This document shows positions 34,741-37,718 of a stretch of DNA of 49,442 bases, in pieces. The position numbers and the translations under genes are program-made. The stretch is from positions 1 through 49,442 of the forward strand of contig CALXLL010000006.1 in assembly GCA_944389185.1 (NCBI GenBank), read 5' to 3'. Positions within the stretch are counted from its first letter, which is position 1. Each line of letters begins with the position of its first letter. The notes beneath the pieces were generated by a model that searched no databases, was not told the origin of the DNA, and saw only the letters and a list, made by a program, of their open reading frames with translations. Source of the stretch: an uncultured Alphaproteobacteria bacterium. GTDB lineage: Bacteria; Pseudomonadota; Alphaproteobacteria; Rs-D84.

Positions 34741-34863
34741 TCAGGTATGAAATCAATACTGAAATCAGCCCTGAAATCAATACTGAAATCAGGTATGATT
34801 TCATCACGATTTCATCTCTGATTTCAAGTATGAAATCTGTGTGATTTCAGAGATGATTTCAGC
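34741..34863. repeat. array of TGAAATCA-type repeats (left)
   Basis: About ten copies of TGAAATCA or its complement TGATTTCA at about 12-bp spacing, first in one orientation and then mixed. A similar array occurs at 37350-37478 on the other side of the recombinase/metK-like element. The gene-free stretch 34533-35340 otherwise holds only the tRNA-Asn fragment, its terminator and the recombinase terminator. Confidence 0.75.
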
Positions 34864-34983
34864 AGTAATGGTATATATTACTGTGTGTCAAATATGTGTT
34901 TTTGTTTTACCTTTATGGCAATTTAGAGCCACTTTCATCCAATTTTGCATAAAAATGGAGCGACCCCCAGACAATAAAAAAAA

Positions 34984-35001
34984 TCCGCAGAAATCTGCGG
35001 A
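34984..35001 (-). terminator. terminator copy beside the tRNA-Asn fragment
   Basis: TCCGCAG / CTGCGGA stem with AAAT loop, followed by T's on the minus strand. It duplicates the terminator at 37619-37636. Confidence 0.75.
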
Positions 35002-35007
35002 AATCTG

Positions 35008-35053
35008 TGGCTCGGGCAACTGGACTCGAACCAGTGACATACGGATTAACAGT
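35008..35053 (-). pseudogene. 3' fragment of tRNA-Asn (attachment-site-like)
   Basis: 46 nt identical to the 3' part of the intact tRNA-Asn at 37643-37718 (anticodon arm 3' side, T arm, acceptor 3' strand, CCA). Identity ends abruptly at 35053. Its 5' half is missing. This is the signature of element insertion at a tRNA gene. Confidence 0.88.
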
Positions 35054-36150: not shown

Positions 36151-36178
36151 AAAAAACGGGGCGGTAGCCCCGTTTTTT
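36151..36178. terminator. terminator after the metK-like gene
   Basis: AAAAAACGGGGC / GCCCCGTTTTTT stem with a 4-base GGTA loop, 36163-36166. Strong in either direction. Confidence 0.92.
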
Positions 36179-37196
36179 ATTCGTCTTTGAATAATATCCC
36201 AGATATACCAGACTTGCATAAGTCCGCATAGATAGGCCTGTTAAGTCCAAACATTCGGATTAGATTTATTGGTTTTTGGTATACTGTCATATCTTGATAC
36301 GATGTGACCTCATCTTTGACAGTTTTTATCAATGCACTTGGTAATTCCGATTTGCCAATGCATGAAGACAGGTAAACAAAGCATTCATCGTTGTCTTTCA
36401 AATTAGTGCATGCCAAAAAGCGTGCATAAATATTCAGGCTCAAATCTGCTTTGCTAGGGTCTTTGGTCCATGGACTGCCACCACCAATAGGGCAAGCGGT
36501 AGAATAAAAATCACAGGCTAATTTACGACCTGTTATGCCACAATCAGCGATTGAACTGTGATATGTATAACGGCCTGTGCCATTTATGATGATGTGCGCT
36601 GGCTTTTCGCCCAGAACAGAAACCACAAAATCGCTCAGGTCTTCGTCTTTCAACATAGGTATGGCAACGATAGCGGTCTCTATTTTATCATCATTTAAGG
36701 TGATTTGAGTCTTGATGTCCAACCCTAGGTTGTCGGATTGACGGGCTTTGTCATACAAGGCGTTATTTAACTTTTTGGCCAGATATAATTCCCGATTGAT
36801 TTTCTGTTCGTTTTGGCAAGCATATCCAACGAATACACCCTGGTCGCCCCAACCATCGGCATCAACCCCTTGCGAGATATCAGCAGATTGAACACCAATC
36901 AGGTTGATTACATTGATTTTAGATGGGTTGATAGCATAATCGCCCCATATAGAGTAATAACGTTCATCATATCCTATTTCGGCCAGCGCTGTCTTTACCA
37001 GAGCGGTCAAATCACCTAGTTTTGCAGATGTGGTCACTTCACCACCCAGAATTACAGTATTGTCTTTAATCATAACTTCAACCGCATAACGAAGATTAGT
37101 GTCTTGTTCGATTAAACGATCCAGTATATATGAAGAGATATAATCAGCAGTTTTATCTGGATGACCGATTGAAACGGCTTCGGCTGTTTTTTGCAT
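36177..37196 (-). CDS. divergent S-adenosylmethionine synthetase
   Basis: 339 aa, about 50 residues shorter than typical MetK (about 384-400). It would make SAM from ATP and methionine. Family blocks are present: EAVSIGHPDKTADYIS (ATP-binding HPDK), GGEVTTSAK, DGWGDQGVFVGYACQ (GxGDQG motif), GTGRYTY, GITGRKLACD, and GGGSPWTKDPSKADLS, where canonical GGGAFSGKD is altered to Pro-Trp-Thr but Lys-Asp is kept. The C-terminus is short. ATG 37196 has AAAGGAG; a 23-aa longer frame starts at 37265. A SAM-II-like riboswitch precedes it. Confidence 0.87.
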   Translation of the reverse strand: MQKTAEAVSIGHPDKTADYISSYILDRLIEQDTNLRYAVEVMIKDNTVILGGEVTTSAKLGDLTALVKTALAEIGYDERYYSIWGDYAINPSKINVINLIGVQSADISQGVDADGWGDQGVFVGYACQNEQKINRELYLAKKLNNALYDKARQSDNLGLDIKTQITLNDDKIETAIVAIPMLKDEDLSDFVVSVLGEKPAHIIINGTGRYTYHSSIADCGITGRKLACDFYSTACPIGGGSPWTKDPSKADLSLNIYARFLACTNLKDNDECFVYLSSCIGKSELPSALIKTVKDEVTSYQDMTVYQKPINLIRMFGLNRPIYADLCKSGISGILFKDE

Positions 37197-37204
37197 AGTT
37201 GACT

Positions 37205-37232
37205 CCTTTGGTTTAGCAAAAATAACCAAAGG
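37205..37232 (-). promoter_or_regulatory. expression-platform hairpin over the ribosome site
   Basis: On the minus strand, CCTTTGGTT (37232-37224) pairs with AACCAAAGG (37213-37205), 9 bp with a 10-nt loop. The 3' arm contains most of AAAGGAG, the ribosome site of ATG 37196. Just upstream, AAATCCACC (37239-37231) is the perfect complement of GGTGGATTT in the aptamer (37321-37313), so the two structures may be alternatives. Confidence 0.65.
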
Positions 37233-37272
37233 TGGATTTGAATACAAAGGCTGAAAATTTTGCATAAAAAAA

Positions 37273-37324
37273 CCCCATGTTTAGTCCATTTATAGGCAGG
37301 ACAAGTCTGGTTAAATCCACCTTA
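37273..37324 (-). promoter_or_regulatory. SAM-II-like riboswitch aptamer
   Basis: Minus-strand elements in order match the SAM-II consensus: a P1 5' arm AGGTG, the invariant GATTTAACC, GTCC, P1 3' arm TGCCT, the conserved ATAAATG, GGAC, CTAAA, then GGGG. P1 pairs AGGTG with TGCCT through two G-U wobble pairs, P2 pairs GTCC (37302-37299) with GGAC (37287-37284), and CC of AACC can pair with the terminal GG. The GGGG is 7 nt ahead of ATG 37265. Matching the class is strong; ligand binding is inference. Confidence 0.78.
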
Positions 37325-37329
37325 TAAAC

Positions 37330-37335
37330 AGTATA
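37330..37335 (-). promoter_or_regulatory. putative -10 box of the metK-like gene
   Basis: TATACT on the minus strand, placed so that transcription would begin at about 37323-37325, the first base of the aptamer. No convincing -35 within 16-18 bp, so low confidence. Confidence 0.45.
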
Positions 37336-37349
37336 GTATCAGAAAACAG

Positions 37350-37478
37350 GTATGAAATCAAGGTATAAAATAGGGCATAAAAGAACCTGTGAAATCAGTT
37401 GTGAAATCAGTTATTAAATCGGTTATGAAATCAAGTTTGAAATCAGATTTAGAATCAATTATGGAATCAAAAAGTAAT
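37350..37478. repeat. array of TGAAATCA-type repeats (right)
   Basis: About eight degenerate TGAAATCA units at about 12-bp spacing, all in one orientation, between the riboswitch and the tRNA-Asn terminator. It matches the left array at 34741-34863. Confidence 0.7.
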
Positions 37479-37618
37479 CAGATATGAAAAGAAAAGTATA
37501 GGGCATACTGCTGATTTTAATATGTGTTTATATGTGTTTTTATTTTTGGGCTAGAACAATTTTAAGCAACTTTGGTCCAATTTTGAAAAAAATCCTAGAC
37601 ACAAAAACAACAAAAAAA

Positions 37619-37636
37619 TCCGCAGAAATCTGCGGA
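37619..37636 (-). terminator. tRNA-Asn terminator
   Basis: TCCGCAG / CTGCGGA stem with AAAT loop and a T-run on the minus strand, 6 bp past the tRNA. Confidence 0.85.
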
Positions 37637-37642
37637 AATCCT

Positions 37643-37718
37643 TGGCTCGGGCAACTGGACTCGAACCAGTGACATACGGATTAACAGTCCGTTGTTCTAC
37701 CGACTGAACTATGCCCGA
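37643..37718 (-). tRNA. tRNA-Asn(GTT)
   Basis: 76-nt cloverleaf: TCGGGCA / TGCCCGA acceptor, D arm GTTCAGTCGGTAGAAC, anticodon loop CTGTTAA (GTT), T arm TTCGAGT, and CCA. It is the intact copy of the element's flank. Confidence 0.95.

Follow-up and report, generated by a model that had tools for sequence, protein, structure and literature searches.

A SAM-II-type aptamer missed by library models precedes a mobile SAM synthetase gene in gut Alphaproteobacteria and may control it through two ribosome sites

Does the leader of a mobile SAM synthetase gene (metK) contain a riboswitch of the SAM-II type, and how could such an RNA control the enzyme? The question is raised by the stretch of DNA analysed here (the window; 49,442 nucleotides from an uncultured Alphaproteobacteria bacterium), for which an earlier note, made from the sequence alone, had proposed a SAM-II-like riboswitch in front of the synthetase at 37196-37335 on the minus strand. 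Every sequence element named in that note was present on the minus strand, i.e. the core element GATTTAACC at 37317-37309, GTCC at 37302-37299 opposite GGAC at 37287-37284, ATAAATG and CTAAA. The aptamer and its immediate surroundings comprise the following features:

37269-37326, minus strand: SAM-II-type aptamer of 58 nt, matched by the homologue-built model R1 (73.9 bits) and supported by covariation
37318-37322, minus strand: 5' strand of P1, AGGTG, the partner of TGCCT at 37294-37298; three of the five P1 pairs are changed on both sides across homologues
37294-37298, minus strand: 3' strand of P1, TGCCT, pairing with AGGTG and including two G-U pairs; covariation
37308-37310, minus strand: 5' strand of P2a, CCA, pairing with the TGG of SD1; U-A/A-U swap in homologues
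37275-37277, minus strand: 3' strand of P2a, TGG, overlapping SD1; covariation
37299-37304, minus strand: 5' strand of P2b, TTGTCC, invariant save for C-G to U-A in three homologues; presumably holds the equivalents of U20 and U21 of PDB 2QWY
37281-37287, minus strand: 3' strand of P2b, GGACTAA, covariation; taken to hold the equivalents of U44, A45 and A46 of 2QWY
37273-37276, minus strand: SD1, GGGG, putative ribosome site of a leader ORF, lying within P2a when ligand is bound
37330-37335, minus strand: -10-like box TATACT, recognised by sequence

The presumed assignment of pocket residues to 2QWY positions was checked against the pocket triples of SAM-II. Boxes resembling a -10 element were found upstream of P1 at 43 of 96 homologous sites, with approximately 21 expected and 42 in one control window; TATACT is a weakly supported candidate promoter box.

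The Rfam library was silent on this RNA. Searches at gathering and permissive thresholds gave no match of any family at the site and no SAM-family match in the homologues. The two models with which the earlier note had proposed to check the site both failed to match: with RF00521 (SAM-II) the site was empty at E<=10 and permissive scans of homologues were empty too, and RF01826 (SAM-V) did not match the site. The RF00521 model does detect canonical copies in other Alphaproteobacteria. We attribute the silence at the site to Rfam models that do not cover this subclass. Single-sequence folding was dropped as evidence of significance, the window sequence alone being not unusually stable against shuffles (z -1.3). 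Since the fold of the window alone is unremarkable, the case rests on comparison.

We built a covariance model, R1, from homologues. R1 matched the window aptamer with an E value of 1e-19, the window copy being part of the training set, and it also matched, outside the training set, before metK in another family of the same order, with 61.9 and 58.8 bits. Across the order, matches were obtained in 64 of 201 genomes (E 0.01; a few weak), and the aptamer lies just upstream of 63 of the 77 metK loci (named MAGs, mostly gut and rumen). The other 14 loci include some cut by contig ends, one in which the aptamer is lost and approximately ten with different leaders. Against canonical SAM-II loci R1 gave no match. 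Among 236 genomes searched with the core pattern, 48 contained it, every one of them a member of the same genus, and the reversed pattern gave zero matches; the same RNA stands upstream of the synthetases of the genus wherever the sequence is long enough. An identical locus in genome G167 was left out as an independent copy because a second fabI copy indicates that the contig may be from a near relative or mis-binned.

Among 37 distinct sequences, 97.3% of the helix cells were paired, and double-sided changes occupied 35 cells compared with 7.6 in shuffles; the sequences are kin, so that these counts are not of independent events, but changes in P1 nonetheless occurred in several lineages. When the partner strand was slid, pairing fell to 27-55%. 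Each of P1, P2a and P2b contained at least one compensatory pair, with swaps among, for example, G-C, C-G, U-A and A-U in P1, U-A and A-U in P2a, and C-G and U-A in P2b. Thus, of the two comparative observations that the earlier note had listed as speaking against its proposal, the missing Rfam score was indeed encountered, but a lack of compensatory changes was not, such changes being plentiful in all three helices. By the homologue model and by covariation, the aptamer before the synthetase is real.

How is this RNA related to SAM-II? SAM-II riboswitches bind SAM and discriminate strongly against SAH. In known SAM-II RNAs, the pocket triples U11-A45-U21 and U12-A46-U20 are fully conserved (PMC3764141). 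The columns that match both triples were invariant in our alignments A1 and A3. All 20 of 20 canonical SAM-II copies read GATTTG..UUGC..GCUAAA; the core here reads GATTTA..UUGU(C/U)C..G(G/A)ACUAAA. Compared with the canonical P2b pairs G22-C43 and C23-G42 (UUGC/GCUAAA), the G-C pair is kept and U-A stands in place of C23-G42, a substitution in which both partners changed. The GG of the SD in the 3' strand of P2a is invariant or nearly so, and paired. Finally, a locus before a metK relative of 52% identity (L256, 1440-1490, plus strand) contains the canonical UUGC/GCUAAA core, and this leader, judged by its sequence, bridges the RNA described here and canonical SAM-II. The MAG with this locus is labelled Spirochaetaceae and is thus outside the Alphaproteobacteria unless mis-binned. 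Because of the invariant triples and the bridging leader, we classify the RNA, from sequence comparison, as a variant of the SAM-II family that does not reach the RF00521 gathering cut-off.

The RNA resembles SAM-II in its compact Sargasso Sea form (RF00521; 2QWY) in having an H-type pseudoknot with P1, P2a and P2b, the GATTTA, UUG and CUAAA core with both major-groove triples, and an SD placed in the 3' strand of P2a. Unlike 2QWY, it has U-A for C23-G42, a longer P2b (GUCC/GGAC) and a short P1 of approximately 5 bp, and unlike RF00521 RNAs it is Rfam-silent, has mobile metK genes and a family of uncharacterised proteins as targets, and uses a second-SD platform in one clade. SAM-V (RF01826) has been grouped with SAM-II in one family (PMC6914780), yet does not match at the site. 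The SAM/SAH riboswitch (RF01727) of Rhodobacterales metK genes (PMC2864571) is likewise a small pseudoknot aptamer before an alphaproteobacterial metK, but it is a different motif with no match in the all-Rfam search, and the core here is that of SAM-II.

Downstream of the aptamer, the leader contains the features on which control of metK would depend:

37197-37265, minus strand: leader ORF, starting at ATG 37265; it has no stop here and shares its frame with metK
37229-37239, minus strand: anti-aptamer AAATCCACCTT, an 11-nt perfect complement of AAGGTGGATTT at 37323-37313; duplex -14.1 kcal/mol
37205-37232, minus strand: 9-bp hairpin sequestering SD2, formed by CCTTTGGTT at 37232-37224 and AACCAAAGG at 37213-37205; -9.7 kcal/mol
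37203-37209, minus strand: SD2, AAAGGAG, of metK, covered by the hairpin; the metK ATG is at 37196-37194

The 9-bp hairpin over AAAGGAG, as described in the earlier note, was confirmed by the sequence. The complement between aptamer and anti-aptamer is perfect, as that note had stated, but extends over 11 nt (AAATCCACCTT against AAGGTGGATTT) rather than 9 nt. Leaders with two SDs form one clade that includes the window (support 100/99; 20 proteins). Across this clade the anti-aptamer is conserved, with changes retained as G-U, and the stem of the SD2 hairpin is nearly invariant while its loop varies; because the stem hardly varies, the hairpin is without covariation support.

In folding calculations, occupancy of the aptamer raised the energy for opening SD2 in 37 of 37 leaders, by 4.7 kcal/mol on average, and the effect persisted across three choices of 3' end (4.7-6.1 kcal/mol). 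When the aptamer was replaced by shuffled sequence in 16 leaders, the effect was gone (0.07 versus 4.2). For the window leader alone, it ranged from 1.0 to 6.3 kcal/mol, varying with the 3' end chosen. All 37 distinct leaders keep the leader ORF open through SD2, compared with 6 and 9 of 37 for the other two frames and 17% of shuffles. Where the ORF is not fused to metK, it ends at -3, +17, +44 or +85 nt relative to the metK ATG; its peptide, stop and frame relative to metK differ among homologues. An ORF that is always open while frame and peptide vary agrees better with coupling than with a role for the peptide itself. What the analysis shows is the conserved covarying RNA, its linkage to the gene, the alternative pairings calculated for the leaders and the universally open leader ORF. 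In one locus (L207), the aptamer upstream of 1501 has been naturally deleted between GGTGGATTT and TTTCCCG while the anti-aptamer and the SD2 hairpin are retained, i.e. it represents a natural sensor knockout.

We consider it probable that this SAM-II-type riboswitch switches the mobile metK off when SAM is plentiful by means of two coupled SD sites; SAM as the ligand, the direction of control and the coupling are inferred. With SAM bound, P1 and the pseudoknot would form and the GG of SD1 would be tied up in P2a, leaving the leader ORF silent. Because the 5' aptamer strand would be held in P1/L1, the anti-aptamer strand would build the 9-bp hairpin that hides SD2. Without SAM, the 5' aptamer strand and the anti-aptamer would pair over 11 bp, removing CCTT from the hairpin and freeing SD2. 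SD1 would also be free, and ribosomes on the leader ORF would traverse the hairpin and hold it open, such that metK is translated from ATG 37196. The aptamer/anti-aptamer/hairpin switch proposed in the earlier note holds up in conservation and in the SD2 folding calculations.

That note had offered, as an alternative to this switch, the classic SAM-II mechanism with GGGG as the ribosome site of ATG 37265. Both mechanisms appear to be real and layered: in the clade of the window, GGGG would serve the leader ORF upstream of the SD2 switch, and the classic form is usual in divergent homologues. In most of the divergent copies, the P2a-paired GGAG acts as the metK ribosome site, the end of GGACUAA and the ATG are 14-15 nt apart, and the arrangement is, by its sequence, that of classic SAM-II; in such direct-type homologues the counterpart of SD1 immediately precedes metK itself. 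We propose that the two-step platform arose once from the direct form, in which metK uses the aptamer GGAG as its own ribosome site. Leaders of a third group carry, downstream of the aptamer, either a hairpin and a U-run or a different hairpin that covers the metK SD; we infer that SAM would turn expression off there too. In the metK leaders of L245, L246, L249 and L251, the aptamer is followed by a hairpin with a U-run, and the GGAG strand, when free, could base-pair with the 5' arm of this hairpin (CGGA/TCCG), which suggests a termination platform. Folding placed a hairpin ahead of the U run in L245, although a consensus terminator scan on this leader found none. In leaders of the L224 and L227 types, the metK SD is covered by a CCTTT/AAAGG hairpin for which SD1 could compete.

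Precedents exist for parts of this arrangement. In the Sargasso Sea SAM-II RNA, the SD lies in the aptamer in the classic arrangement (PMC9373788). In the Sinorhizobium meliloti metA SAM-II RNA, the SD is likewise part of the aptamer, and translation begins at a second AUG (AUG2) 74 nt further on; AUG1 and AUG2 share a reading frame, a terminator lies between the two, and AUG2 depends on the aptamer SD (PMC9373788). Unlike metA, the metK leaders described here possess an SD2 of their own within a hairpin, together with an anti-aptamer and a leader ORF whose frame is variable. The B12 riboswitch of Mycobacterium tuberculosis ppe2 acts through a uORF by termination-reinitiation (PMC11260477), so that, as in our scheme, the main gene depends on a leader ORF whose translation is governed by a riboswitch; aptamer and ligand are different, and the coupling, measured there, is proposed here.

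The ppe2 precedent (PMC11260477) also speaks for a scheme in which only the leader ORF matters, SAM hiding SD1 and metK being translated only by coupling or reinitiation with the anti-aptamer secondary. The ORF that is open through SD2 in all leaders, and that ends near the metK ATG or is fused to metK, agrees with this scheme; however, the anti-aptamer is conserved with changes that preserve G-U pairing, and the calculated switching of SD2 is lost with shuffled aptamers. We regard the scheme as possible but rather unlikely. An RNA that resembles SAM-II but senses SAH, MTA, SAM-AMP or another adenosyl compound appears improbable. The altered P2b pair, the P1 that is shorter than in canonical SAM-II, the failure of Rfam to recognise the RNA and its presence before a family of unknown function would suit such a sensor, but the pocket residues that contact the sulfonium are invariant, the main target is a SAM synthetase, and the bridging L256 sequence has the canonical core.

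Because the RNA is mostly found in front of metK, it could in principle serve autogenous control, with MetK binding to a conserved site, rather than bind a ligand. This is very improbable, as the RNA also precedes the uncharacterised family in genomes G058 and G011, where no MetK was found. Chance resemblance in AT-rich DNA, to which the lack of an Rfam match and the z of only -1.3 might point, has next to no probability: it is already refuted by the comparative data, i.e. the reversed-pattern control with zero matches, the covariation and the strict gene linkage. Our preferred reading remains the switch with two coupled SD sites.

The gene behind the switch lies on a small island with the following features:

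36177-37196, minus strand: phage-type SAM synthetase (MetK) of 339 aa; Pfam MetK domains, phrog_1569 with 252 bits
35341-35940, minus strand: small serine recombinase of the Mpi-type invertase family; NF009949 with 316.5 bits against a cut-off of 272
34977-35053, no strand assigned: left repeat of the tRNA-Asn 3' end (att-like), 97% identical to 37612-37688
37612-37688, no strand assigned: right repeat of the tRNA-Asn 3' end, overlapping an intact tRNA-Asn at 37643-37718

The 77-nt repeats enclose approximately 2.6 kb with the recombinase and metK, and in a relative (L176) metK lies between the same two repeats at tRNA-Asn. The recombinase presumably moves the metK island. The location of the synthetase on a mobile element, as the earlier note had it, is borne out by the flanking repeats and the recombinase; the link that it drew to a neighbouring restriction system is not. 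In the near-identical contig L171, the metK island is present and the segment 30966-34894 with the restriction-modification genes is absent. We therefore rejected an association of MetK with restriction-modification: those genes are a separate tandem insertion, and their proximity is coincidental. The segment encodes an N6 methylase with, by eye, a PD-(D/E)xK-like N-terminus, and a specificity subunit. Tandem insertions at tRNA-Asn mark a hotspot. Repeats of TGAAATCA / TGATTTCA at 34741-34788 and 37346-37442, i.e. near the left repeat and upstream of the aptamer, are possibly binding sites of the recombinase.

All three MetK domains (Pfam) are present in the enzyme, and alignment to a solved MetK indicated that its catalytic motifs are intact (HPDK, GDQG, the K of the DIKTQ region, DCGxTGRK and KDPSK). 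With TIGR01034 it scored 174.7 and did not reach the cut-off of 309.4; the phage family phrog_1569 fits better. It is apparently the only MetK in the genome. In a protein search across the genus, 33 of 96 genomes returned the synthetase, and none of the searched genomes of the genus (approximately 0.6-1.1 Mb) had a MetK above the TIGR01034 cut-off. In about two thirds of them (genomes of approximately 0.9 Mb) no MetK was found at all, which suggests SAM import or another source. The relatives' hosts are gut and rumen Alphaproteobacteria MAGs.

The same aptamer also stands directly in front of genes for uncharacterised proteins of 145-193 aa (family X; 13 aligned, from L063, L064, L068, L070, L071, L072, L076, L137, L141-L144 and L147). 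Family X had no match in Pfam, PHROGs or PADLOC, and was found in 3 of 59 genomes sampled, each time behind the aptamer. Its structure was predicted with confidence by AlphaFold (pLDDT 88.9), and the predicted fold had no match in the PDB. In several family X aptamers, GUCC/GGAC of P2b is replaced by GUUC/GAAC. Separately, the aptamer at L139 (G177:C43) precedes a 394-aa ORF (from 919, plus strand) with a sub-threshold match to Pfam S-AdoMet_lyase (E 0.04), and a short ORF behind the aptamer at L091 (2138-2371, plus strand) matches the C-terminal part of ADP-ribosylglycohydrolase.

We lean, by a modest degree, towards the view that these RNAs constitute an unrecognised subclass of the SAM-II family, which so far is nearly confined to gut Alphaproteobacteria with reduced genomes where the usual chromosomal metK was not found, acts on phage-type, mobile metK genes through several platforms (direct SD, terminator-like, and a relay of two SDs and a leader ORF), and has as a further target a new protein family of no known fold, with a probable link to SAM metabolism or anti-restriction. 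The library models for SAM-II would thus miss a whole branch, and the targets of SAM-II would come to include SAM synthetases on mobile elements as well as a family of uncharacterised proteins. The RNA is also a clear example of an aptamer that gained a second regulatory layer in a single clade. Family X, so far seen only behind the switch, may lead to a new SAM-linked function. Finally, the chromosomal gene needed for an essential cofactor appears to have been lost in these bacteria, and in about one third of the genomes a mobile gene equipped with a sensor of its own takes its place.
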